Shown in pieces: positions 5,436-29,000 of a DNA stretch of 64,000 nt. Positions within the stretch are counted from its first letter, which is position 1. Every line of letters begins with the position of its first letter. Below the pieces are notes generated by a model that was not told the DNA's origin, searched no databases, and worked only from the letters and a program-made list of their open reading frames with translations. The position numbers were made by a program, and so were the translations under genes. This DNA comes from Owenia fusiformis (lineage: Eukaryota; Annelida; Polychaeta; Sabellida; Oweniidae). The stretch covers positions 22,631,985 through 22,695,984 of the forward strand of contig CAIIXF020000004.1 of NCBI GenBank assembly GCA_903813345.2, given 5' to 3'.

Positions 5436-6369
5436 TTATTTTTTATTTTTTTTTTTATTTCTCTATTCAAACAGTACAAGTACAAAAATTAGAACAGTTC
5501 AGATATTTTTCACACCACCTACATTCATTCAGACATTTGCAACAGTCATGCTTTTAAGTTCAGGTACATAATAAAACATATTTTTTTTCAAATTGCACCT
5601 CATACAAATTGGGATTCATTCGTCGAACTCTTTAATAAAAATATAGTACTTAATTGCAAGGGTAAGTCTATTTGGTAAGATATTTTTATTATTAGCTTGC
5701 CTTCCAAAAACCATGTCATGGGCGTTAAAATCGAAATCAACTTTAAATAAACGCTTTAAATTCCCTTTGATTGCTTTCAGAAATATTTGAATCCTTATGC
5801 ACTCCCAGAATTTGTGTTTTAACGTATCTCGAAAGGCACAATAGTTACATTTAGAGTCATTTTTAATGCCTATCTGCGCTAAAAAGGCATTTGTAGTGCA
5901 GATACCATGAGGAATTTTAAACTGAAGTTGTCGCGTTTTATTCTGTTTCGTACACATATAAGGCATTTTAAAATAATCGGTTCTCTTTAATTCACGATCA
6001 TGTTTGTCTTTATATAACGGTTCCAAGAACTTGTTTCCATTTAATATTGCTTGAATTGATTTAACCGTTATACTAGAGATTGTCACCTGTTTTTCACCAA
6101 GTTTCAAATACACGAGTTCTTCCTGTATGCTGGGTTCAAAGGTCGAATTTAAATCTGATTTCAATAGAAATTTCCAATCATTTGGTATAGCCGATATGAT
6201 TGAAAAATACTCAAGAAAGTTGATATTAATATTATACAGGGTGTCCAATAAATAAGGTGAAAGATATTGTAACTTTCTTAATATTGCACCAATCTTGATG
6301 AAATTTTCAGAGTTTGTAGTCCAAACCTTTTTACCTTTATTCCGTGAATTTAATGCGTCTTCTATTTGA

Positions 6370-7140
6370 TTGGCCAGAGTTGTGGTTGCTATAGCAACTG
6401 AAACAACAAAAAGGCGGGGCAAGTTTGTTTACGTCACAACTTTCCAAAACATATTTATTCTTTCTGATCGATAGCTTTATTCATACTCCCAGGTCTATTA
6501 CTACCACAAATACAATATAAAAACAGTCCTAAAGTTCCATTGTTTTGAAAATGAGCTATTCACCATAATGTCCATCTCTAGCTATACACTTTTTATGCCA
6601 TCAACCACTCTCTAAACACACTTTAAAACCCATTCTTGCTCATTTCCCGAAGTCTTGCTAAGACATGTAATCTGAGTTCACACACAGCTATGCTTACTAG
6701 TGAAACTATTAGGGCACTGGGACTACCCTTACTTGCACACCCTCCATATTCCCAAGACCTTGCACCCAATGACTTTTACTTATATACAGAACTCAAGCGT
6801 GACTTGAGAGGAAATAAATTTGGAAGCACTGATGAACTCAGATCACATGTCTTAGCAAGACTTCGGGAATGAGCAAGAATGTGTTTGAAAGTGTGTTTAG
6901 AGAGTGGGTGAATAGGCATAAGAATTGTATAGCTAGAGATGGACATTCTGTTGAATAGCTTATTTTCATAACAATGGGGCTTTAGAACTGTTTTTATATT
7001 ATATTTGTGGTAGTTATAGACCTGGGAGTATGAATAAAGCTATCAGAAAGAAGAAATATGTTTTGGAAAGTTGTGACGTAAATAAACTTGCCCCGCCTTT
7101 TTGTTGTTTTGGTTGCTATAGCAACCACAACTCTGGCCAA
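6370..7140. mobile_element. Mariner-derived foldback element with ~300-bp inverted ends
   Basis: Arms of about 300 bp (6370-6675 and 6835-7140) are inverted copies of each other. They begin ttggccagagttgtggttgc and include ggttgctatagcaac and a caagacttcgggaatgagc block. The arms are nearly identical apart from small indels. The element sits inside the LINE and separates its thumb and C-terminal regions. I see no clean TA duplication at the ends. The right arm overlaps transposase-like coding sequence, so the left arm seems to be an inverted copy of the original 3' end. Confidence 0.87.
6636..6872 (+). pseudogene. Mariner/Tc1 transposase C-terminal fragment
   Basis: The open frame encodes HPPYSQDLAPNDFYLYTELK followed by RDLRGNKFGSTDELRSHV. 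This matches the conserved region around the last catalytic aspartate of mariner-type transposases (HPPYSPDLAPxD). Only about 50 residues look like transposase. The catalytic DD part and the DNA-binding domain are missing, so it is a relic within the foldback element. Confidence 0.85.
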
Positions 7141-13662: not shown

Positions 13663-15671
13663 CTAAAATATCAAATTATGAACTTTATAAGTAAAAACAT
13701 TTGCGCCAATCCAGTTAATTATTTCTTTGAATAGAGGCAGAGTAAAATCATTTCTCTAATTTAGTCTGTAACTAATTTTAAATTTTGAAATATACCTGTG
13801 TGAAAAAATTATTGATTGTGAAAAAATCATTGATATTATTCAAAATATAATTCCAATTATATCAGGCAAAATAAGTTATTTGCTTCCATTTACATAAAGC
13901 TTGCTGATTATGTGCATCTTTCGTGATTATTGTACTTTTCTCATTTAAAGGAAAAACTTTAAAAGCCTAGTGTTCAAGAAATACTATAGTGCCATCTATA
14001 TTAGTCGAACATCTTGGGACCATTTATCTAAGTAAGCTGGATTGTTTCGATATCTACAAACGAAATAATTAGTCCAAAGAATAACTGGTATTGGGGAATT
14101 GCAGTTGAGATACAATTATATTATAGACAATGTAGGCAATTCAACTCAGATAGTGAAACTTTGAAAGAACTGTCAATACAACAGTTAGAGTCACATTTAT
14201 TTTTACACCTATGCTATTCAGTCCTTAACAGTAGTTAAATGATATTGGGACGAGGTTTTCACTCATTGATCAAATTAGATTTTTTTGTTTTTTGGGTGAA
14301 GTAATTTATTTCAGGTTAAGAATAACTTGCTGGAATTCTTATCCTTAATAAACTTAATATTTTTTAATTCATAACGATTTGTAACTTTGGCAATCAATAG
14401 ACTGGAGTCTTTTTACGTTCTTTTCTGTAATAATAGATTGAAGCTTGACAATTCTTTTTTGAAGCTAATTAATTAATTTTTGTTAAAATTGAAAAATTGC
14501 TAGTATTTTCTCTTCAGTTTCGAACTAGGTTTCGAATATTTTTTCACGCTTTGGTATTTCCTAGAAAATGGTTATGCTCGGGTCATTTTTTAAGCTGATG
14601 TCATATAATAAATAATATTTTGGGGGTTTATTTACGATGAAAAAACAGCTACTAGTCCTTCAAGATAACTCCAAGATATAGGATGAAAAAATGTGGATTC
14701 AAAATTTATTTTATCAGAAAAATATTTATTTCTTATACACATGTATATTGCATTTCACAGACATGAACACTGGCATTCTAGTACATCAAGTTACAAAGAT
14801 CATCCTCACGAGGTTTTATATCTCAAAACAATTGGTGAATCACACCTAGTACATTATATACATTTATATACATGTTTACATTTATATTTATGAACACATA
14901 TCAAAATAATGTACACTAATGGACTGATTATGTACAGTGTACAAAATATGCATTCACAAGAAAAAACATTTACATTGCCAATGAAAACCACCGAGAACCT
15001 ACTGTAATACTATGTTTATTATGTCTGGCATTTATTTTCGCGATTCATTACATTTCAATTTTGACAAAATTGTTTATTACTTCAAAACCGAAAGTATATA
15101 TCAGGGCAAATCAATATACGATAATTATTAATTCCATGAATTCTGCTATTCTACCACATCCTGCGCCATGTGTATTGATATCAACGACATTATATGTGTG
15201 TTATCGTGATGTCAATACAACTGTCTACCATGACCATGCGATATAAATTAAAAATATTGCTAATTATTTCTTATTATTTTTTTTGACAAAAATCAAATTT
15301 TGGTATGGAAATTCGGACAGCATGACAAATTATGCATCAAGTCCGTTGATAATTTCTAACTGGTTAATAAAATATGTTTCCGACCGGGTTTCAAAAGGGG
15401 TTGTTTGATATGACATACTTATTTAAAAATAACACGTTTTATAATGTCCATTTGTTTTGTATCCTCCAACATATGCTCAACATATTCAATTTACTGACAC
15501 ATTAGGTATAATTAAGAATTTAATAAGCTGTTTTTGAGAAATAATAAGCAATATTTTCAGTATACGTCGCATGATTATGATAACCAGCTGTGGTGACTTT
15601 AAAATAGCACACATCAAATGTCGCTGGTATCAACAGACACTACGCAGGCTTTTGATAATATCAATTATCGT
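13663..15671. other. Intron or intergenic DNA, nothing recognised
   Basis: AT-rich sequence between the distal last exon and a MITE. I found no exon with coding character, no RNA gene and no repeat. If the distal exon belongs to the TNF gene this is intron. Confidence 0.5.
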
Positions 15672-16064
15672 AAAGGACGATTCTCGGTTTGGAGAACAGT
15701 CTCCTGGGCTAATAATTTTTTCATGAAAAATATAGAAATATTACCCAAATCAAACTATGAATATCCGAAAGAGGACATTTAAATCTACAAGATGTAAAAA
15801 TAACAAATTGGTCTGAAGCAGGGATAATGCTCAATTAGACCGATTCAATAAAATACAAGTCTCGATTTGGGGAAAGAAGTTCATCAGTGTACTGCGCTAA
15901 TATTTTTTTGCGAAAAATCTAGAAATATTACCCAAATTAAATTATGATTATTCAAAAGAAGACACTCAAATCTATATTATGTAAAAAAATCAAATTTGTC
16001 CGAAGCAGGGATAATGCTCATTTAGATTGATGAACTTCGTTCTCCAAACCGAGAATCGTCCTTT
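15672..16064. mobile_element. MITE with 26-bp perfect ends and internal direct repeats
   Basis: Ends at 15672-15697 and 16039-16064 are perfect inverted 26-mers (start aaaggacgattctcggtttg). Inside are two direct copies of about 150 bp, each holding tagaaatattacccaaat and gaagcagggataatgctca. It lies just downstream of the proximal TNF last exon. Confidence 0.88.
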
Positions 16065-16266
16065 GCCCATCTTTACCTCAATAATTCCTTCGTTTTCAAT
16101 TCTGTTCCAACTAAATAGTTCAACCACATGTAATTCAAGGTAAAAACATTCAGGAATCCTATTTGTTTACCACCCAAAACAGTCACAAAATGTCTGCTTG
16201 AAATTTCGCTCAGCACGCCCATTTTTACTTAAAAAAAACTCAAAGAGCAGGATAATCCAAAATAGC

Positions 16267-19200
16267 CTAATGTATTTGATAAAGTCCAAAAAAGCTTTCC
16301 GACTCATTAAACTTAGCCCTACCAGTTGCATTTAAAAATTTAATGAATAATTCACTGTTTGGCGTATCAATGTGTATAAGCCCAGCTGAAAAACAACTAT
16401 GTCCCGGTCCAAGTGTTGGTCCGTGATCTTTATCTGATCTTGGGATGTTCAAATGTCTTAAGTCTAGCACACATTCCAAATGTACCCTTTGCTTTTGATT
16501 CCCTTTCTCGTCAGGTTCGTTCAAAACCAAAGCTACCCTGTCGTATAACTTTGTGCTTTCTACTGTCACCTGAAACAGAAAATGTTTTCAGGTTTAATTT
16601 TAAAAAAAAAGCAAATGTTTTCAGGTTTAATTTAAAAAAGAAAACAGAAAATGTTTTCAGGTTTAATTTTAAAAAAAAACAGAAAATGTTTTCAGGTTTA
16701 TTTTTTTAAAAAAAAACAGAAAATGTTTTCAGGTTTAAATTTTTAAAAAAAACAGAAAATGTTTTCAGGTTTGATTTTTAAAATAATGAAATTTTGTTTA
16801 ACCTTTTTAGGTATAATATCAACAAAATGTATTTTCAGTAACCGGATGTTACTCTTAACCGGATGTTACTCTTTACACACTGGTAAAATATCTGGATAGA
16901 CATCGACCTCCTTCTTGGTGAAAAAGATGGAAATAAAAAGAAGAATTTCATCCATTTTGTTATAAAGACGTAACAGCAATGAATATGAATAATGTGATTG
17001 CCGAATAACTTTTTCCAGCTTTTTTCTTGGTTTACTTGAAGAAAGTGCAAATAGTTTACAGACAGGGCTAGCTTTGGTTTAGAAATGTGAATATACGTGT
17101 ATACAATCGGGATGTCATTATACTACAGGATGTCATAAATCTTCCGAAACAACCGCTATTTTTTAATTCTCAATTAAATGTTGTTTACACGCATACAGGT
17201 GTCATGACGTCATAATATGAGAAGGATTGGCTTAAGAAATTTTAGAATGCTTGTGGTAATAACCTCATGAACAATAAAATAGACCACTTTTACATGTTTA
17301 TGATAATTAAATTATCTCTAAAATGACAAAAGTTTAAGAATATTCCTTATTACTCGAACTAGAGTAATTCCATGGAAAATGGGCGATGGTACTAAAGCAA
17401 GCCTCTCAATAACTAAACATGGTGAACATGTCTAAACTTTTATGATTTCAAATTGGCTGCAAAGAACACGCTGATTCAAAACAAGCTATTGTATTTTCAA
17501 AGTCCAAAAGGCTTTCCGATTCATTGAACTCTGCTCTTTCCGTTGCATTTATATCTTTAATGAATCAATCGCTGTTTGGCTTATTAACACAAATAAGCCC
17601 AGCTGAAAAACAACCTATATGACTTGGTCTTTTAATTGGGTATAACGTTTTCAGGTATTATATGAACAGAAAGTATTTCCAGGTATAATGTTTCTAATTT
17701 TTGGGCATATGTGTTTGGGCAATATCAACAAAAAGTGTTTTCATGTATAGTATCAACAGAAGATGTATTCAGGTAAAATGTTTTGAAGTGTTGCATCAAC
17801 AGAAAGTGCTTTCAGGTATAGTATTTTAGTATAATATCAAGGGAAAGTGTTTTCAGGTATCATGTTTTCAAGTTTGTCAGGTACAATATCAACAGAAAAT
17901 GTTTTCAGGTATGATGCTGTATAGTATAACATCAACAGAAAGTGAATTCTTGTATGTTTTCAAGCATAATATGAAAAGAAAATGTTTTTAGGTATAATAT
18001 TAATAGAAAATGTTTTCAGGTATAATATCAACATGAAGTGTTTTAGGTACAATGTTTCAGGTATAAAATAAATAAAACGTGTTTTCATAATAACGTTTAC
18101 AATATATTATAAACAGATAATTTTTATGATGTTTTCAAGTATAATATCAACAGAAAGTGTTTTAGGTATAATGTTTCGGGTATAATGTGAATAGAAAGTG
18201 TTTTCATAATAATATTTACAAATATATTATCAACAGGGAGTGTTTTTATGATATTTTCAAGTATAAAATCAACGGAAAGTATTTTTAGGTACATCATCAA
18301 TTGAAATCATTAAGAACATGCTGGTCATGCAGTATATGTTATATTTGAAAGGGTAATCGAGTGGTTGCGGGTAGGAATATTGTTTGGAATTCGGAAAATA
18401 GCCAGAAGAGACGAGAATCCACGAGGACAAATAAATAATATATTACCGAAAGCGCGTGAAACGTGGATCATTTTGCCGTAATTTGTGGAAATAAATGCCA
18501 TTCATAATGATGAAATAATACATTTCAAAATAAGATATATTTTGTCTATTTTTATTGGGGCAACTTCATGGAGAAAATGCTACCGTAAATTCATAATTTT
18601 CCTTAAAAAGAAATCATAAGTAAATATGAATAGTAAGACCTCATTATGACTTTTCCACCTTTGTTGGTTTAGGTTAAGAAAGTGCAACTAGTTTACTTAT
18701 ACCGCTAGCATTGACTAAGAAGTACATGAGTATGCATGTACGGATACCAAAATAAGATTGTCATTACACAATAGGGTGTCATACATCTACCAGAACAACT
18801 GCTAATTTACAATTCTCAATTTAATTGTTGTTACAACACATTCAAGTATCATGACGTCCTGAGAACAATTGCCCAATTAGTTAAATTTTAAGATGTTTCA
18901 TGTAATAACCTCCTGAACAATAAAATGTAATTTACCTGGAAATAAACCATATAAAGACCCTTTTGCTTTACAGTAATGGTCCCCTCACTGTAGGTCAAAT
19001 CATCAGGTTGTGGCCAGCCTTTAAGACCAGTATCCCATTGCTTAATGACGCCATCTATAACACACATTTAACACAAAATGAACATCTACTGGGTTTAACC
19101 AAGGGTGCACTTCTTTAGTTCGTTCAGTGTATGCCAAGTGCTGGTATCGCCATTTTTAGTTCAGTGCCAACTAGGTTAAAAGGAATATGGTTTGGGTTTG

Positions 19201-22200
19201 TTACTATCATACACTGAACGAACCAAATGTAAACATATCATGCTTATGTCACAAGAGAATTTAAACCTGATCGAATTTAAATTACTAAAATTACAAAAAT
19301 ATATTTACAATTAAGTATTATAGTTTATATTGCTCTGTGTTTTGTATTGTTGCTCTTTATGCGTTTCCATGATCAGAAATTAATCTTTTGATGTAAATCT
19401 AAAGATGTTATTACGGATACATGTATTTGCTTATTGTGATAGGGTTGGGATACAGCTAGTCGTTTACAGTCTCAGTCAAAGAAAATCATTCTATTTCAAT
19501 TATTTTATTCCATATAAATAATGCAATACAATGCAAAACATATGGAAGAAATTGAATTAATACGAAAAAGGCATGTTTTAAAATATATTAGAATACTTTA
19601 AATTGGAAGGGAAAAGGCAGCTGAGAGTATACATTTTGCGAAATATTCAAAATAGCTAAGAATATTTCAAGAGATATATACCAAGGGGTTATGAACAGAA
19701 GACAGATAATGTTAAGAATACCTAAAATACATTGTTCTCTTACCATGACGTCATTATATCCATGGTGACAACAATTGATTTGGGAATTGTCAACTTTACG
19801 AAGTGGCCATTATCAGAAACTACATAAAGTTAGGAATTCCTAAAATCCATTGTTCTTTTTACTACAATCTCAACGCTTCTGTTCTTCACCCCTATATGAG
19901 TAATGATTAAATAAGGTTTATATACATGTTCCGTGGCCCACTTCAATGTTGTCGATGTCAGTATTTCCGATGAGATGCATTGCCGACGGCGTCTAAAAGG
20001 ATAAATATTTTAAATAATTGGCTGTTAAGCAGATACAGTACCTGTCTCGCTCACACGTAATTCCTTATTGTTGTCCCCTGTGAGGTGTATGGCCAACGGA
20101 TCCTAAAAGGTAAAAACAAGTTGTTTTGATTTTAATTTTAAATGTAGCTTTGCCATGATTGACATCTGAATAATGCAATCCAGTTAAAAGCATGGCCAAC
20201 GGCTCCTAAAAGGTAAAAATTAGATTTACCATTTTAACACGGAAAGTGTATTATCCAATGGTTTTTCCATTTGGTTCGCGGCTACCGTTGAACCTTCTAA
20301 AAAGCAAATGTTTGATTTATTCGAGGAACATAAGAATCATTGAATACTGTACCTTTGCCAGTAGTGACATATCCGATGCGTCTATGCCCAGTGAGATGAA
20401 AAGCCACTTGTTTCTAAAAGGCAAGAGTAAGTATGAGACGGACATGTGATGGATAATCTCTATCCACGGGTCTCTATCCCCTTCTTTTTCTTTACCTAAT
20501 TAGGGCTAACTCACAAGGAATAAAGAAATGAGCCCTGTGAGTAACACCTCATGGGGACAATTTCTAGTTTATGAATAGTCACTTTATAATCTTTGAATCC
20601 CATGTATAAACATACTGTCCAGTCGATCGCCATCAGCTTCTAAAAAGTAAATTTAAAGATTTTATTAATTCAATTTTGAACTATACTATACCTTTTCCAA
20701 AATGAATAGGCCTAATAGCAATATCCAGTCCAGTAAGATGCATGGCCAAAGGTATCTAAAATGTAAAACAAATTTGTTTTTGTTTAAATTTGGAAATATA
20801 CCATACCTTTGTCGAAATGGATGTCTCCGACAAATTGGTCCCCAGTGAGATGCGTTGCTATGGGAACCTGCAAGGTACAACAAGTGTTTATTAGAACTTT
20901 TCAATAAACTCTGACCTTGGCAAACCAAGGAAACTATAGGGTATGTTGCATGGATTACTTTGTCCAATTGCTGCCCTGAAACTGTAAGAAGCACATCATA
21001 ACCAATAGATGGCATGATTTAGTGAATTAATTGAAATCGAGTACATGGAACACCCCTGTATATGACATCACTATTTGTCATGTTTACTTCATAGATTTTC
21101 TATTTTAAAAGTTTTTAAAAATGTCCAATGGTAGAGCATTTGACCAATAAGTTTTGAATTTGGGCCCTTTTAATTCTACGAACTTTTCAACATTTTTTGT
21201 CTACATCGTCTCAATCTGCATGATGAATTTATTATCTTTGATGGACTACCCCGTTTAAGCAATCATTTGAGCTTGTTATGATGAGATGGTACATATAATT
21301 GACATTATTAGGGGGTTTATATAATATTACTAAAACTTCCATGTCTTATTTTATTAGCTTATTAACCACATCCAATCTAGAATTTGTTTTCCTCATGACT
21401 GGTTACGCTTTTAGATGTTTTACTGTTTCTCGATTGTTTTGCTATGTATGCTCTAAGTCTCACGCTTATATATTTGAGGTATTTGATGTTTCACTCTGGC
21501 TTTATATAAATGGTAAATATGGTCTATTTTGGTTAAGATTGCTTTGCTTTCCAAGGTTTGCCACTTGTGCACACATATGTATACATATTATCCCATTTAT
21601 ACATTAATGCCACCTTTGTTTGTTGAAGGAAACATGATTATTGTGACATCATACACTGAGCTTATACCATACCTTTGCCAATATGGATATCTCCCATAAA
21701 GTTGGCCCCTGTTACATGCATGGCCATTGGCCTCTAAAAAGCAAACCTACATATAACAAACAATAAAAACAAATAAACAAACAAACAAATTATGTTGGTG
21801 AATGCCTACTTCAATTTAAAGTCGATATTACTAAAGCTACATACAACTTACTATGATAAAAGAGAAGTTTTGAACGCTATATATTAATTTAAATGTCAAC
21901 TTACAAACTTAATGGTATACCTACTCCTAATCATTAAAGATGCATGTAGCTTACAGCAAGACTTCAACATGCAAAAATGTGACAACCTGGCAAGTTATTG
22001 AAAATGATTACAAAATGTAACAATTTGTTACAGCTGCTGACCGCAACAATAGTCACAAAAACAACGGTTTATCAATATCCCAATGTTTCTTGTTGGTGAC
22101 AAAATCACTGAATGCTAAATTTAAGGTACTGGGCAAAAGAAATGAAAAATTAAAAAAATCAACCCCACGCAATCTGGCAATGTATAATTATTGAACAGTT

Positions 22201-25200
22201 TTGAGGAATGTACCAAAAGAAAATCAATATGTATAACAACAAAACATAATAATATATTAGTCTAAAATGAGACCACTTGTTGAGTAAGTGTCACGAAGTT
22301 TCAACTATGGTTGAAATTGTCAATATCTGAATATGCAAGACGCATGCATGTAAAATGACAAAATACTTTGATTTCCATTTAACTATATACTCGTACATGT
22401 CAGATGTTTGCAAATTATAGGTGCGTAATAATAAATTAAATTGTGATTTTCTATACCATTTTGTTTTAAATTTTTCTTTGAGTCAAAGCGTCCTTTTGTA
22501 TACATTTATGAATTTTAAGTATAAAAATATTTGTTTTTGATGTCATATATCTTTCTTTTGTTACATAGCAATAATGTACATAAATTGTGTGAAATACTGT
22601 CATTATATAGTCATATTTGTTCTTGTATTTTCATTATTATTCAATATGTATTTTATCTTATTTCTATTCATTCATATGAAAGTATGGTTAATTGTAATTA
22701 AAAATCCCAATATGTAACCCCAACTCGAACCATTACATAATATCTAACAAAAACATTTACTATACAATACTAATATGATAATATAAACTACTTCTTAAAC
22801 GAACTATTATATTTATTGTATGTATTACTTACCTTGGGCGAAGCTACAGTAGGTGTTGGAGTTGTAGAAGTAGTAGAAAATGGACCTGGAATTAAAGTCA
22901 CAAAGTTCAAACTAATTATTATCCAAGACTTGAACGTGTTTGAGTTTGAGGTACATGAAGGTGCATACAGTATATAAAGGTTTGTAAAATGCTGTATTTC
23001 AAGAGGGCGGTGTGTAGCTTCACGGATGCGATGAAGGAGTCATGAATATTAAGATGTTCGTTGAATAATATGAAGAAGCTATCAGAATCTTCAGCTTCAT
23101 TTATTGTCCCCAAGTCGTCCAGCCCTCGAGCAGATATATTTTATTGACCTTGAGATAATTCCAATGTTCTGAACCCCACATTAGATATTCTTTTTATGAC
23201 CTTCAAAACAAGCGATATTTCGAAATGGATAAAGTAAATTGGCACGACTGTTTTGGTATTAGTATTAGTTATTTTATATAAATATTGATGTGTTACCGGG
23301 TGATCAAGGTGACTTGGTACTGAAAATGTAAGACAATGTACATGCAATTGCTTATTCAAATAAAGTTCGTAAAGCAAAACGAATAGGAACATCTAAAATT
23401 TCTAAAATTTCACAGTGTTTAAAAAATAAACTTTTGGACAATATGGAAGCTTTTCCATAACCAAATGAGCATTGAATATTGAATTTCTAAGATTATACAA
23501 TTTCTATGTTGGTCAAAACCTTTTCGAGATAAGAAGGGACAAATTTTATTTTTCACTTTGAACCTAAAGATTTTTAAAATTATTCTTTTATTTTGAAACC
23601 CGAAATGTTCCAAGGAAAATATTTCTTTCCAGATCATCCCTTTAGGCTTATTTGATTGGGGTCTTGAAGGAGAACTATGCAATCGAAGTAATTTCAGTAA
23701 CATACCCATAGTTGTAGAAGCAGGAGCACAACTGGCAACCTTCTTGCAAACAGCACCTAAAAGTTATGCCACATATTAATAGCATTGTGTTAGGAGGGGG
23801 GGGGGTGGGGGGGAGGGGGTAGAGAGAAATTATTATAGCAAACAAGAGGTATAAGTATTATGGCATTAAATCTTTTGACTAGAAAAGTTGATTTTTAGTC
23901 AATTATAAGTCTCAGAGGAATAAACATAGAAACCTTCAATCTTGAGAGGAAATTGACATGGAAAAATGCTCAAAAAGGGGGTCTTTGGGGCGGCACATAG
24001 GAAGTATATTGGAGTGAAACTCTCGGACTTCAGGATAGACTGTACCGTGTTAGAGGAAAGATTCGTTTGACAAATATGGATAAATAAGAGAAGCGGGGTT
24101 AAAGCAGGGAGATGTCCACTCTCTTAGAACCGATATAACAGATTTGTCTGGAACATAGGGATGTCAAAACCCCTACTTAATGGGTTTTACTGAACAATAT
24201 CGCGAGTCAAGTAATACTGTATAGTGTATATAAAATACCTGAGACAGTAGGAGATGTCAAACAGTTGGCGACTGCATTACATCGTTTTGCCTTTCCCCTT
24301 TTCCTGTTTTTCTTCTTCTTGTGCCTTGTTTTACCCTCTTTGCCACTGGTTGGAGTAGAGGTTGGAGATTCCCTTTTTTGAATATGAGATGGAAGTGAAT
24401 CATTTCCAATAACGTGATTGGATAATACTTTGATTCTCTGTTCGGTTGATTGGTTGATATTCTGAAACGAAGGTATTTTAACATTTAAATTTTGCAAAGA
24501 CTTTCGGAAATATGCCAATATGTTTCAACTGAACTTATGTTTCATTCGGGGTAGATCAGTAACTATGATAAAGTAATTGACATGTCATTGCGTATAGATG
24601 GCAAGTCAGAAGTGGACTATTTGTTACTATCTGCTGTATAATTTAACATATCATAAATGAGCCTGGCCATAGGAAAACCGGTCTTATCACAAAAATTAAA
24701 ATTGTGCTACAGAGCCAAAAATGTGCCCAATGAAAATGTGCTAAATTAGGATCCAACTTTTTATTCTATATATGCATGGAAAGACACAAGTCACGGCTCA
24801 TTTGAAAGGTCTTTTTGTGCTTTTTAAGATAAACAAAAAATCAAAATATTGACAAATCTGTGATAAGACCACTTTTCCTGTGGCCTGGCTCAAATATTGA
24901 TGTTATGAAACAAATAAACAAAAATAAAATAAAAAGAATATTTGGTATTTTACTCGTATATTGTTTCAAGTATACCTCTATTTGCACATGAAGGAAGATG
25001 TATTCTGCTATTATTATTTGGTATTGTCACCTCATTTTGAAGCAATATTTCCATCTTAATTTATCACTGCATCTTTTGCCATCTATTGACAGTAGTGAAG
25101 TCCATTAAAATAAATAATTAATATTGAGTTTATTAATCACTAAAATTTAATTTATGTTCGAATAAATCATGTTTTACAATTAAGCAGAGAGTAGCGTTGC

Positions 25201-26060
25201 AAAAGTATTTTGAATCCAATTTTATGGTAACAATCATTGAATAATTTTATTGACATTTGTTTTTTCTGCTTTCTAACATAATGTATTCTAGGTTGAATGT
25301 TGTGTGTTATTGAAAAGTATCACGTGATTACTTTCTTTACACATGCGCAGTGAACAAATATAAAGTGGTCGAAGTCAAAATGCACTTTGTCTCCGATAAA
25401 TAAAATACACTATCAATATTGTAACACGCACATGGGTTAGGGCAATTTCTATAGACCAGTATATCGTGCATATAGGTGAATAAATGACACTAACAGTAAC
25501 TCACAATGCATAGCAATTGCTACTGGCTGTATAAAGTGGGTGACATTGAAATATCTTCTGCCATAAACAACAAGTGGTCGTGAAATAGTATAATGGGTTA
25601 ATTTGCTATGAAACATAAAGCTTAACATGCGTAGTTCTGTGTAACATCCATGCATATAAAATAAAACCACACGATCGAACATTTAAAGACTAACGAAGCC
25701 AACAGACTGCTTATTTTAATCATTGACCAACATTTACTGTACTTAGTATACCTGGTTTTCTAAGAACTCCATTGTTGTTGTTGATACAGGATCCAGGGGC
25801 CTCTCTTGCAATATGTATGATACACTTGGTTTTAGTCTTTGTACCTCCTCTTGAAGAGTATTTACACGTAGGAATAATATAACGAACATAGGGATTGTCA
25901 AACAGATATATAAGCCTCCTAATACTGCCACTGCAGTTGCTAAACTCCTATTGCAAGAGTTACACGTTCCTGGGTGTTTGGTAGGGTGGTCTGGATGGTC
26001 AACATCAACGCTAACGCTCTTGGATAGTTCTGATGGCTTCACGCTTGGATTATCCGACAT
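16267..26060 (-). CDS. TNF-superfamily ligand, EDA/Eiger-like, with variant exon array
   Basis: Predicted secreted or membrane-bound cytokine. Exons on minus: 26060-25752, 24461-24239, 23756-23706, 22885-22833, one of the variants in 21733-19926, 19054-18936, 16569-16267. All phases join, giving about 372 aa. Residues 1-40 are cytosolic; about 41-64 form one hydrophobic segment without a signal peptide (type II); a short coiled coil follows. Residues 147-163 are strongly basic (RHKKKKNRKRGKAKR), a furin-like site. Next is a Ser/Thr/Pro stalk (PFSTTSTTPTPT). The TNF domain begins at about 213 (PxAxHLTG), continues with GLYMVYFQ and ends SFFGLYQIH. The cysteine pair LEC/HSC resembles ectodysplasin. 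No collagen repeats are present. The start ATG is the first in the open exon. Family assignment is firm; the exact orthologue is not. Confidence 0.88.
16570..16795. repeat. 35-bp tandem repeat at the TNF last-exon acceptor
   Basis: Six or so units of gaaaatgttttcaggttta plus an A-rich spacer begin within a few bases of the acceptor of the proximal last exon. On minus they form a repeated pyrimidine-rich tract that may influence acceptor use. Related, more decayed units fill 17640-18300. Confidence 0.85.
17498..17629 (-). pseudogene. Decayed duplicate of the TNF last exon
   Basis: On minus this reads CFSAGLI, then INATERAEFNESES, closely matching the second half of the exon at 16267-16569. 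It contains an in-frame TGA at the position of the glutamate in NSELFIK, and the FFGLYQIH end is altered. The first half of the exon is missing and replaced by minisatellite. Flanking intron also matches: about 17040-17285 resembles 18660-18930, so a block of 1-1.5 kb was duplicated in tandem. Confidence 0.85.
17640..18300. repeat. Degenerate 28-30 bp minisatellite in TNF intron
   Basis: Irregular units of aacagaaagtgttttcaggt plus ataatatc repeat about 18 times with many changes. The unit is related to the repeat beside the last-exon acceptor at 16570-16795. It lies in the intron before the last exon. Confidence 0.8.
19118..19223. repeat. Small MITE or RNA-hairpin element upstream of common TNF exon
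   Basis: gttcgttcagtgtatg (19118-19133) and its perfect complement (19208-19223) are separated by 74 bp. The element begins about 64 bp before the common-exon acceptor (exon top at 19054) on minus. It looks like a MITE, but in the pre-mRNA it would form a stem next to the acceptor that all variant exons must use. Confidence 0.75.
19712..19870. repeat. Dispersed repeat (cattgttct family)
   Basis: Contains two direct copies of a ctaaaatccattgttct-like block, with tatatccatggtgacaacaa between them. A further copy is at about 55485-55600 in an SMC4 intron. It is probably a non-autonomous transposon; its ends are not clear. Confidence 0.7.
19926..21733 (-). CDS. Array of eight tandem variant exons for the TNF-domain start
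   Basis: Copies, in transcript order: 21733-21673, 20877-20817, 20755-20692, relic 20639-20602, 20413-20353, relic 20205-20148, 20102-20042, 19992-19926. Intact copies encode about 20 residues with core P-x-A-x-H-L-T-G, for example RPMAMHVTG, VPIATHLTG, DPLAIHLTG. Four are exactly 61 nt, one is 64 and one 67 (using a shifted GTATAT donor); all enter in phase 0 and leave in phase 1. The relic at 20639 has lost bases and its donor; the one at 20205 has a CT instead of a GT donor. Introns between neighbours are often only 45-62 bp. The core corresponds to the first strand of the TNF domain. Confidence 0.88.
21734..22832. other. TNF intron, nothing recognised
   Basis: AT-rich intron between the stalk exon (22885-22833) and the first variant exon (21733-21673). 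I saw no further copy of the variant exon and no clear mobile element. Confidence 0.6.
24659..24891. mobile_element. MITE, copy 2 (GAGCCTGGCC family)
   Basis: Matches 8313-8563. Ends gagcctggcc and ggcctggctc are inverted. An AAAT at each side (24655-24658 and 24892-24895) may be the target duplication. It lies in TNF intron 1. Confidence 0.87.
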
Positions 26061-29000
26061 GTTTGATCCATGCGGCTACATCGAACATGTGCGTTGGTAT
26101 CCTTGTTTGAATTTGCCGCTTTTTGCTTTAATGTACCTTTTGGTGAATCATATACCGGGATTCCCCTCTTTCATCGTGTCCATTTCTACATTCTGTTTGT
26201 GTATTGCAGACCCCATTCCTTATTTGAACACATTCTGTCATACTGACTTCTAAGTTGTTATTTATAAATTGTGGTTATCTTTCAAATACACTCACCCTTA
26301 AAAATAATCCAAATACGATGTCCGCGAATAAAATGAAACAGCTCACATTTTCAAATGCAAAGTAACAAGCTTAAATTAGAATCTGTGCAAGAATGATGTA
26401 CTCCATTGATCTTCTAGCTTTATATTCTGTATATTATGTTGGTAAATTCGAGAAATTTAGCTGTCAAGAGAGAAAGGAGTGAAATAAGCCTTAATCTAGC
26501 ATGACATTCTTAGCACGGGTAAAACACAAAATAATATCATTAAAGGTTCTTATGAAGCGTTTTATACAATGCATGTACTTCGAAACGGTATTTGTGGACG
26601 TTAAATAATAATTCAACTAATTTTCTAGCTATGTCACCAGAAACGACTGACCGGATAATGTTTATTTTTCTAAGGGTTACTTAGTTTAAGACCATTCATC
26701 GCAACATAAAACATTCTATTTCAACTTCGCGGAAGTTCTATTTTAAATTTTTGAAACTTGTATTTGAGAGAGAAAGTAAAACCTTTCCTCTTTGAAAGCT
26801 GGTACTTTGTATTTTTACATAACATAACCAAATAATGACCTTGGCAGGTCGAGGGTAAAGTCTGTACCAGTAACGCGTCATGGTCGTAAATTCACAGATA
26901 TCTAGCGTTCTGTTTTGTTTTGTTTTTAGTTTATGAACGAACTGAAGAAGTGATACCATGTATTTTAACGTCCTTGTGCATTGGAATCAACTCGTTTTCG
27001 TCCACTACAATCCAGGGTATTGAAGACTACCCTGTGAACAGGAACAGGCATCCATTACGGGATCACAATCTTGTTGTCATAGTAACACGAATACATTGGT
27101 GCAACCAGTTGTGAGGCAGACGAGGCAATTGCCTCACTGAAATATTCTGAAGTTGACATTGTACTTTTTTCTTTGTAACCTTTCTAACAGAACTTAAATT
27201 CTAATCCAAAATTAAGTAGACTGTACTTAAACACCTTAAATGACCTTGAACTGTAAATATGACATTGAATACCTTTGGATACTAATTATTCTATTTTATC
27301 TTTTATTTGATTAAGTGGCCTTGACCTCACTGTTGCACCTCAAATTAACCCACCTTGACCTTTGGTCATTCATTGACCTAAGATCCAATGGAATATTATA
27401 TGGACATGAGGACATTTTTAATAGTGATAGCTTCAGAAAATCATAGAAACAATTCTAAGACAACTGTTGTTTTAAGCACTCTCCAAATACATTCCACCTC
27501 TGTGGATGCCAAAACGTCGGGCATGCTTATTGTTTTATTTATGTATGCGTCTGGTGCATTGTACACTGATCTTAGAATTTCATAAAAAGTAATTTTCAAA
27601 AAACTGAATGCACACTTCCAAATGGCCTCGATTGGGAGGTGATGTTCAAGAGCAGCCCGCCTCTCTAAACCCGTATAGCAAATATATACTGCAGAAGGAT
27701 TTTACCGCAATAGTACCAAACAAGAGTACCAAACAATACGCAACCGCTACGTTGAAAATAGTGCATGATATTTGTCATCCGCAGATATAAAAATGGAGAA
27801 AAGTGGCTGCGCTTGGAGGATGCAAATTAGCCTCTATCAGTAAAGAACACATGGGGGACACATGTAGGTATTCCACTATCTTGTAAACATGCCAAGTGAT
27901 AACCCTTCACATGTGTCGCACTTGAATATTATATCACAGTGATATTACTATGTAAACTAATGGATATATATTTCTTCACTCAAATTTTGGTTCAAAACGG
28001 CAATTTTTACCGCTATGCAACATTTTCATGATATTGAACAAAATTGACAATTTGTTGAATTTCTAGTTGTTGGCATTCTAGAGTTCCCTAATAAAAGGAG
28101 TTCTGTGAAAATTACCCCTTCCCCCACCCCTGTATAACACGATTGTCACTTCTACAAATCACTAACGGAAGCCCGCAAAATATTAATAACCTGATAAATG
28201 AGAGAGTGTCAGTTTACCGGAAATGCCAGAGCCTAGGCCTAGGAATTCGATATCATAGAGTTGTTTTGTAAAATATATCACTGTCACCGACTAACATCTG
28301 TTGTGAAGTATAATGACCCTTAATAGCTTATTTTGATATTTGACACATCTTGTTAATCTAACATCAAAATTCTGGCTACTCTGCCTGCCTTGAATCACCC
28401 TTGTATTGAAAGTCTGAGAGTCTGTTATTAGTCTAAAGGGAGACGTGGATGGTCCGCGCCGGGGTCCGGATATATTACTGTAAATGATTTAATTCGGCGC
28501 TCGCCATTTCTGCACAATGTAAGATCGGAAGTTTGATATCTTCGACAATTACTGCTACAGGTTGTCTTTTGATAGCCAAAGTGGGTCATTGTTTAAAAAA
28601 AAAGAAAATTCGCCAAAATAAAAACGCGATATTCAACAACTTTAAAGGGGCAACAAGGACTGTAGAGAGAAAATTCAATTTTTAAATTTTTTTCTGAGCT
28701 AACAGGTTAATATTTGACTTAACACCTTCTTTGACATGTCTATTTTCTTCAAATGTGTGTATAAACTATCAATTTCAGCATTAAAAGTGTAAATTCAGTT
28801 CAAAGATTCTATAAAGGGAGTCCCACTCATAGATTTTTAAGATCCACCACGTTTCAAGAGGAATATCAACTGAGATAATGTTCATCCAGGGGGTTTCTTA
28901 ATGAAAATAGATGTTAGTCTTGATGAAATATCCAAACTTAAATATATCTCGACACTGGTCGATGATCGTTGATCATGAATGGCCCTCCTGCACTAATTGT

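Follow-up and report, generated by a model that had tools for sequence, protein, structure and literature searches.

The window, the whole stretch of 64,000 nt of Owenia fusiformis DNA that we analysed, has a GC content of 32–40% per 4 kb. Its minus strand carries a gene predicted to encode a TNF-type ligand, with four exons 5′ and two exons 3′ of an array of small, related exons; both gene and array are given in window coordinates. The gene model was derived from the DNA alone. Exon 1 (25752..26060), whose open frame was taken to start at the first in-frame ATG that follows a stop and to run to the donor CAG/gtatac, supplies the start codon, the cytoplasmic part and a hydrophobic, transmembrane-like stretch, and ends in phase 0. 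Exon 2 (24239..24461; phase 0 to 1), an open frame between acceptor tttcag and donor cag/gtattt, encodes part of the stalk with a very basic run that looks furin-like. Both the hydrophobic stretch and the basic run were read by eye, and a DUF6011 match in exon 1 falls below the Pfam cut-off. A small Cys-containing stalk exon follows (exon 3, 23706..23756; phase 1 to 1; open frame, acceptor ttttag, donor gtatgt), and then a Thr/Pro-rich stalk exon (exon 4, 22833..22885; phase 1 to 0; acceptor ttccag) whose donor, gtaagt, faces the array. Exons 2 and 3 are required because exon 1 ends in phase 0 and exon 4 starts in phase 1.

On the other side of the array, the common exon (18936..19054; phase 1 to 0) encodes a conserved part of the TNF domain with W and GLYMVYFQ. 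It begins just ahead of the W and gave a single match when the genome was searched. The terminal exon (16267..16569) encodes the remainder of the TNF domain and the stop codon, and gave one intact and one broken match, 1.2 kb apart. Minisatellite-like arrays are seen in the last intron (17639–18306 and 16571–16786). The terminal exon takes its acceptor from sequence similar to the minisatellite unit, so this splice site seems to border on the repeat.

Between 22833 and 19054 one small exon recurs nine times, as copies or relics, within 1.8 kb. Six are intact, each with an acceptor, a donor and an open frame that runs from phase 0 to phase 1: c1 (21673..21733, 61 nt; RPMAMHVTGANFMGDIHIGK), c2 (20807..20867, 61 nt; VPIATHLTGDQFVGDIHFDK), c3 (20692..20755, 64 nt; IPLAMHLTGLDIAIRPIHFGK), c5 (20353..20413, 61 nt; KQVAFHLTGHRRIGYVTTGK), c8 (20042..20102, 61 nt; DPLAIHLTGDNNKELRVSET) and c9 (19926..19992, 67 nt; TPSAMHLIGNTDIDNIEVGHGT). 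Relic c4 (20591..20639, 49 nt) has an acceptor and is shortened, with GT absent at the matching place. In relic c6 (20230..20296), the acceptor region alone is recognisable; there are two in-frame stops, and the 3′ end given is arbitrary. Copy c7 (20148..20205, 58 nt) has an open frame and CT in place of the donor GT, and is probably dead. An earlier, sequence-only reading of this DNA had placed the array at 19926–21733, which agrees with the start of the first intact copy and the end of the last. It had described eight copies, six of them with splice sites and an open frame, and lengths of 61, 64 or 67 nt. The six are those listed above and the lengths are true of them (four of 61 nt, one of 64 and one of 67), but our total, relics included, is nine.

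A profile built from seven copies, applied to the window, returned its own seven at E values of 1.5e-16 or better, as it must by construction, and two further hits at E values of 5.7 and 9. Relic c4 matches the same profile with an E value of 0.025, over its 5′ end. Relic c6 was not recovered by the seven-copy profile and was recognised by a 16-nt acceptor repeat that it has in common with c4 and c1. Allowing up to three mismatches, a pattern for the core of the exon has six matches in the window, compared to a mean of 0.02 in shuffled sequence. A longer core pattern, again with up to three mismatches, has six matches in the 498-Mb genome, all of them in the array (c1, c3, c5, c7, c8 and c9, with c2 beyond the mismatch limit), and its reversed control has none. 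Any two intact copies differ at 9–15 of the 20–21 aligned amino acids, which argues that the array is not one exon assembled repeatedly; misassembly is thus unsupported. In the intron between the array and the common exon there is also a direct repeat of 63 nt (19679–19741 and 19797–19859, 76% identical). The motif ATTTTAG adjoins each unit of this repeat, and the profile does not recognise the units as exon copies.

When the exons of the model are joined with any single intact copy, phases are consistent at all junctions and the frame is uninterrupted from ATG to stop. The predicted ligand would have 372–374 aa, i.e. 372 with each of the four 61-nt copies, 373 with c3 and 374 with c9. Its identification as a TNF ligand is borne out by Pfam: the spliced 160-aa domain containing c1 scores 34.2 bits against PF00229, for which the cut-off is 23. 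The scan was made with the c1 form only. The match covers residues 26–158, which the other five forms have in common, and the variable exon supplies residues 1–20, ahead of the match. Best matches of the c1 domain to solved structures, by sequence, are Eiger, the arthropod TNF (6zt0, E value 0.0025), TRAIL (8slr, E value 0.0047) and LIGHT (E value 0.18). The Eiger match, best but weak, consists of two weak stretches, and for this reason we leave the gene unassigned between Eiger and EDA. Where the c1 exon aligns with TRAIL and LIGHT, it spans an AxHxTG core together with the residues that follow, a region that in those ligands forms strand A and the following loop. With the variable exon lying ahead of the Pfam match, its position in the fold depends on these weak alignments. 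They suggest that it encodes strand A and the start of the following loop. The earlier reading of the gene as encoding a TNF domain is upheld, while its assignment of the exon to the first strand is only as strong as the TRAIL and LIGHT alignments.

According to the accessible part of PMC3912159, mutually exclusive exons are neighbours of similar length and sequence that share frame and splice-site pattern. The six intact copies show the features of such a cluster: they are neighbours, 61–67 nt long, all run from phase 0 to phase 1, and share a core. To see what the frame allows, we enumerated all 64 possible inclusions of the six. Single inclusions are open in 6/6 cases. A premature stop arises in the product without any copy (1/1), in all pairs (15/15), triples (20/20) and fivefold products (6/6), and in the product with all six (1/1); these stops lie at least 59 nt ahead of the last junction, i.e. 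beyond 55 nt. Fourfold inclusions are open in 5/15 cases and not in the other 10/15. The argument of the sequence-only reading, that two copies together shift the frame, holds for all pairs (0/15 open), but four copies together preserve the frame in a third of cases. Overall, frame arithmetic supports the use of single copies.

The best explanation of the locus is, in our view, mutually exclusive use of the copies, with exclusive splicing in vivo predicted from these features of the DNA. Tandem duplication of an exon for strand A and the start of the loop would have given rise to six functional alternatives, alongside three copies now dead, and each transcript would take in one copy. An mRNA that skips the array, or that contains two, three, five or six copies, would be out of frame, and nonsense-mediated decay of such wrong products would be expected. 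The isoforms would be full ligands with a constant stalk and a constant remainder of the domain, differing in the loop after a conserved PxAxHLTG strand. We put the probability that the array consists of coding exons used alternatively at about 0.74.

What the isoforms would be for is a separate matter. The differing loop would most likely tune the binding of a receptor or other partner, and a switch of receptor by loop exchange is plausible. At least seven matches to the receptor domain PF00020 occur, at five places in the genome. Residues L29 and R32 of TNF presumably align just after the variable exon. The TNF muteins L29S and R32W are TNFR1-specific, and the AA″ loop of RANKL (residues 170–193) was thought to be related to binding, as stated in the accessible text of PMC8781899; both implicate this neighbourhood in receptor interaction. 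For Eiger, by contrast, partial texts of two papers name contacts elsewhere. In the model of SfEiger, the receptor is contacted through strand D and through the CD and GH loops; the A′A* loop is flexible (PMC6684607). Residues key for Grindelwald are Asp337, His388–Arg391 and Arg396–Arg401 (PMC8024323). Because the Eiger contacts named lie elsewhere, a change of binding between isoforms is plausible rather than assured. The copies might instead be used one at a time in the service of trimer assembly, stability or shedding, an idea favoured by the Eiger data and by the fact that the conserved part of the exon is the strand itself, and disfavoured by the RANKL and TNF examples. This alternative concerns purpose only, its probability overlaps with those of the other readings, and we regard it as a serious possibility that falls short of an even chance. 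Much the same can be said of isoforms acting specifically as a binding switch. A bolder form of the binding-switch reading is a six-way ligand switch, in which regulated choice among the six strand-A/loop exons would yield trimers, and mixed trimers in cells using two forms, each engaging a different receptor or set of receptors, with receptor choice set by ligand splicing and not by gene duplication; we offer this tentatively.

We also compared the copies codon by codon. Over the first nine codons, pairs of copies differ at 0.21 of first, 0.24 of second and 0.61 of third codon positions; over the remaining codons, the values are 0.49, 0.61 and 0.60. Codon models were fitted with two base compositions on two topologies, the most parsimonious among 105. 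With both parts free, omega is 0.20–0.25 for the core and 0.59–0.72 for the rest, and with the rest fixed at 1, core omega is 0.30–0.31. The rest is not clearly different from an omega of 1 (lnL loss 0.6–1.3), whereas neutrality throughout costs 9.8–11.7 lnL. In neutral simulations on one topology, 0/100 reached the observed gain of 10.6 (the largest was 4.9) or an omega as low. The first nine codons of the copies are thus under purifying selection as a set, and the codons behind the core are nearly unconstrained. The view of the copies as exon-like units agrees with these data, in that coding ability has been kept under selection across the set (core omega 0.20–0.31). Setting a single terminal branch neutral changes lnL by −2.2 for c3, −1.4 for c8 and −1.1 for c9, and yields a gain of 0.3–0.6 for c1, c2 and c5. 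Because neutral single branches cost so little, constraint is established for the set and not copy by copy.

We also asked how often six or more of nine copies would stay intact under neutral decay. With indels, the probability is 1.2e-3 at 0.2 substitutions per site, 2.9e-5 at 0.3 and 1.1e-6 at 0.4; the corresponding values without indels are 0.047, 3.8e-3 and 3.2e-4. The model treats copies as independent, starts from the present intact copies and assumes an indel rate. A rival idea is that one copy is in use and the others are duplicates in decay, as c4, c6 and c7 are. Three of the nine copies are indeed dead, the terminal-branch tests leave constraint on c1, c2 and c5 unsettled, and the 3′ end of the gene likewise contains a dead tandem duplicate. 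But the other six retain both splice sites, an open frame and their length class despite differences at 9–15 of 20–21 amino acids, and the core they share is constrained across copies. We consider use of a single copy unlikely.

Exclusive use of single copies would call for some means of choice. One candidate, raised in the sequence-only reading, is that gaps between several neighbours, given there as 45–62 bp, are too short for easy splicing. Short gaps in the array measure 51, 52, 56, 24, 45 and 49 nt, and 4/6 of these have a dead copy on one side or both. Intact neighbours are separated by 805, 51, 278, 250 and 49 nt. The argument accordingly applies to c2–c3 (51 nt) and c8–c9 (49 nt), where so short a gap would hinder direct joining, and does not extend to the other three of the five intact pairs. 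For those, frame loss followed by decay would clear joined products once splicing had occurred. As far as the accessible part of PMC6071210 goes, frame loss with decay is described there as a route to exclusion, with limits, as is a docking-site mechanism. Three gaps long enough to splice, together with premature stops, over 55 nt ahead of the last junction, in all wrong products but 5/15 of the fourfold ones, would suit a looser alternative use in which frequent wrong products control expression level in the manner of poison exons rather than strictly one of six being chosen, but such a role has no need of a conserved strand core, the amino-acid core is conserved nonetheless, and we think this very improbable.

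Returning to strict one-of-six choice, we looked for a docking site of the Dscam type by pairing the 55-nt flanks of seven copies with the two outer introns, using shuffled flanks as control. Of 28 duplex tests, one gave a z of −2.9 and the others ranged from −1.6 to 1.6, so no pairing was significant. In the tests with intron 4, the best partner overlaps 22700–22740 in 10/14 cases, compared to 38/120 for pieces of other introns; this interval was chosen after the duplex results had been seen. It is a G-rich stretch (minus strand) in the intron before the array. Mean pairing energy is −21.6 kcal/mol for array flanks and −23.8 kcal/mol for control pieces, i.e. the flanks do not pair more strongly. 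Because the controls pair more strongly on average and the flanks overlap and are homologous, we regard 22700–22740 as an unspecific candidate docking site and a weak lead. Nothing complementary to the shared acceptor TTTTACCTTTTAG was found, with up to two mismatches allowed, in the two introns flanking the array.

A comparison of raw mean pairing energies between donors and acceptors of the array gave no clear signal either. Array donors (AAAGGTA) against array acceptors average −6.06 kcal/mol (36 pairs), and pairs of a donor with a downstream acceptor in the array −6.92 kcal/mol (n = 15). The same donors give −5.80 kcal/mol with four other constitutive acceptors and −3.32 kcal/mol with the acceptor of the common exon, and the donor of exon 4 gives −7.18 kcal/mol with array acceptors. 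A sliding fold scan of 52 stretches found one with z below −3 and six below −2, and no Rfam family was detected within 15000–27000. An inverted repeat of 20 nt, 95% complementary with arms 74 nt apart (19114–19133 and 19208–19227), sits 60–173 nt upstream of the common exon. Its fold beats 199/200 shuffles in a chosen stretch (z −3.1) and has a z of −2.2 in the fixed scan. A mobile-element origin of this hairpin (19114–19227) was rejected, as no second copy was found in a genome search that skips very common words; because such words are skipped, there is still room for a high-copy element.

Duplication at this locus extends beyond the array. On the minus strand, the terminal exon has a dead counterpart at 17614–17460, which matches 16397–16241 at 78% over 157 nt and contains one TGA, and the intron behind the common exon is duplicated as well (18926–18651 with 17280–17011, 72%). 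These dead duplicates (17460–17614 and 17011–17280) lie between the two working 3′ exons, and comparison of the stretches indicates a past tandem duplication that took in part of the gene. Elsewhere in the window, a long open frame at 5616–6428 (minus strand) has a weak zf-RVT match below cut-off and is probably a retroelement remnant.

At least 14 PF00229 matches occur in the genome, in clusters, with further TNF ligand genes on contigs C2, C92 and C483. In the four of 14 frames that we read by eye, the domain after the first strand is contained in one long exon, in contrast to the gene described here. A search for the strand-A motif in six stretches around paralogous TNF genes returned 18 scattered rows, none array-like by eye; its reach is limited in that paralogues may have a different strand-A sequence. 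Across the 498-Mb genome, the core pattern is confined to the present locus, and these searches gave no sign of similar arrays elsewhere. Two TNF-domain matches on one contig (G000:C92:10297-10650 and 17034-17387) have identical scores, lie 6.7 kb apart and are perhaps a recent duplicate. At another locus (L009, on G000:C2, around 20176463, plus strand), a Cys-rich frame resembling TNF-receptor repeats by eye is located between TNF ligand matches.

If transcripts agree with our reading, a single gene would encode a signal molecule in six or more forms. The usual description of TNF families is that they expand by gene duplication. An exon array within the domain would be another route to cytokine diversity, one in which stalk, expression and most of the fold stay fixed. 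The array would amount to a natural swap experiment on the role of the loop behind strand A in receptor binding, and would allow a direct test of whether ligand splicing, besides receptor number, sets the specificity of invertebrate TNF signalling.

Mutually exclusive exon clusters are already known, and what seems to be new here is an array inside a TNF ligand domain. Among the matches listed in our literature search on exon arrays and splicing in TNF ligands, molluscs and annelids, which covers few subscription journals, none describes an exon array in a TNF ligand in its title or the opening of its abstract. The main text of a 2026 paper on tunicate TNF ligands contains no word starting with 'splic', the phrase 'alternative splic' is absent from a study of the vertebrate TNF superfamily published in 2020, and the accessible portions of the Eiger literature that we consulted mention no alternative exons. 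Neighbouring similar exons of the same kind are described for Mhc in arthropods, molluscs and annelids, with mutually exclusive clusters also in lophotrochozoan Mhc genes, and for insect Dscam (accessible parts of PMC3912159 and PMC6071210). In a mollusc, the oyster alternative oxidase gene has a duplicated exon that is alternatively spliced (PMC5589949, in part). Mhc is a motor protein, Dscam a cell-surface Ig protein and alternative oxidase an enzyme, whereas the present array lies in a TNF cytokine fold. Vertebrate EDA-A1 and EDA-A2 offer an analogy, in that splicing alters the domain of a TNF ligand. The EDA variant consists of two residues at another place in the domain, whereas in the present gene six whole exons would be exchanged for the first strand and its loop. 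Manduca Serpin-1 has an array of alternative exons for the reactive centre that swaps the specificity part of one fold. It differs from the array described here in fold and in place: the Serpin-1 exons encode the C-terminal end of the protein, and those of the TNF-type ligand would encode strand A.
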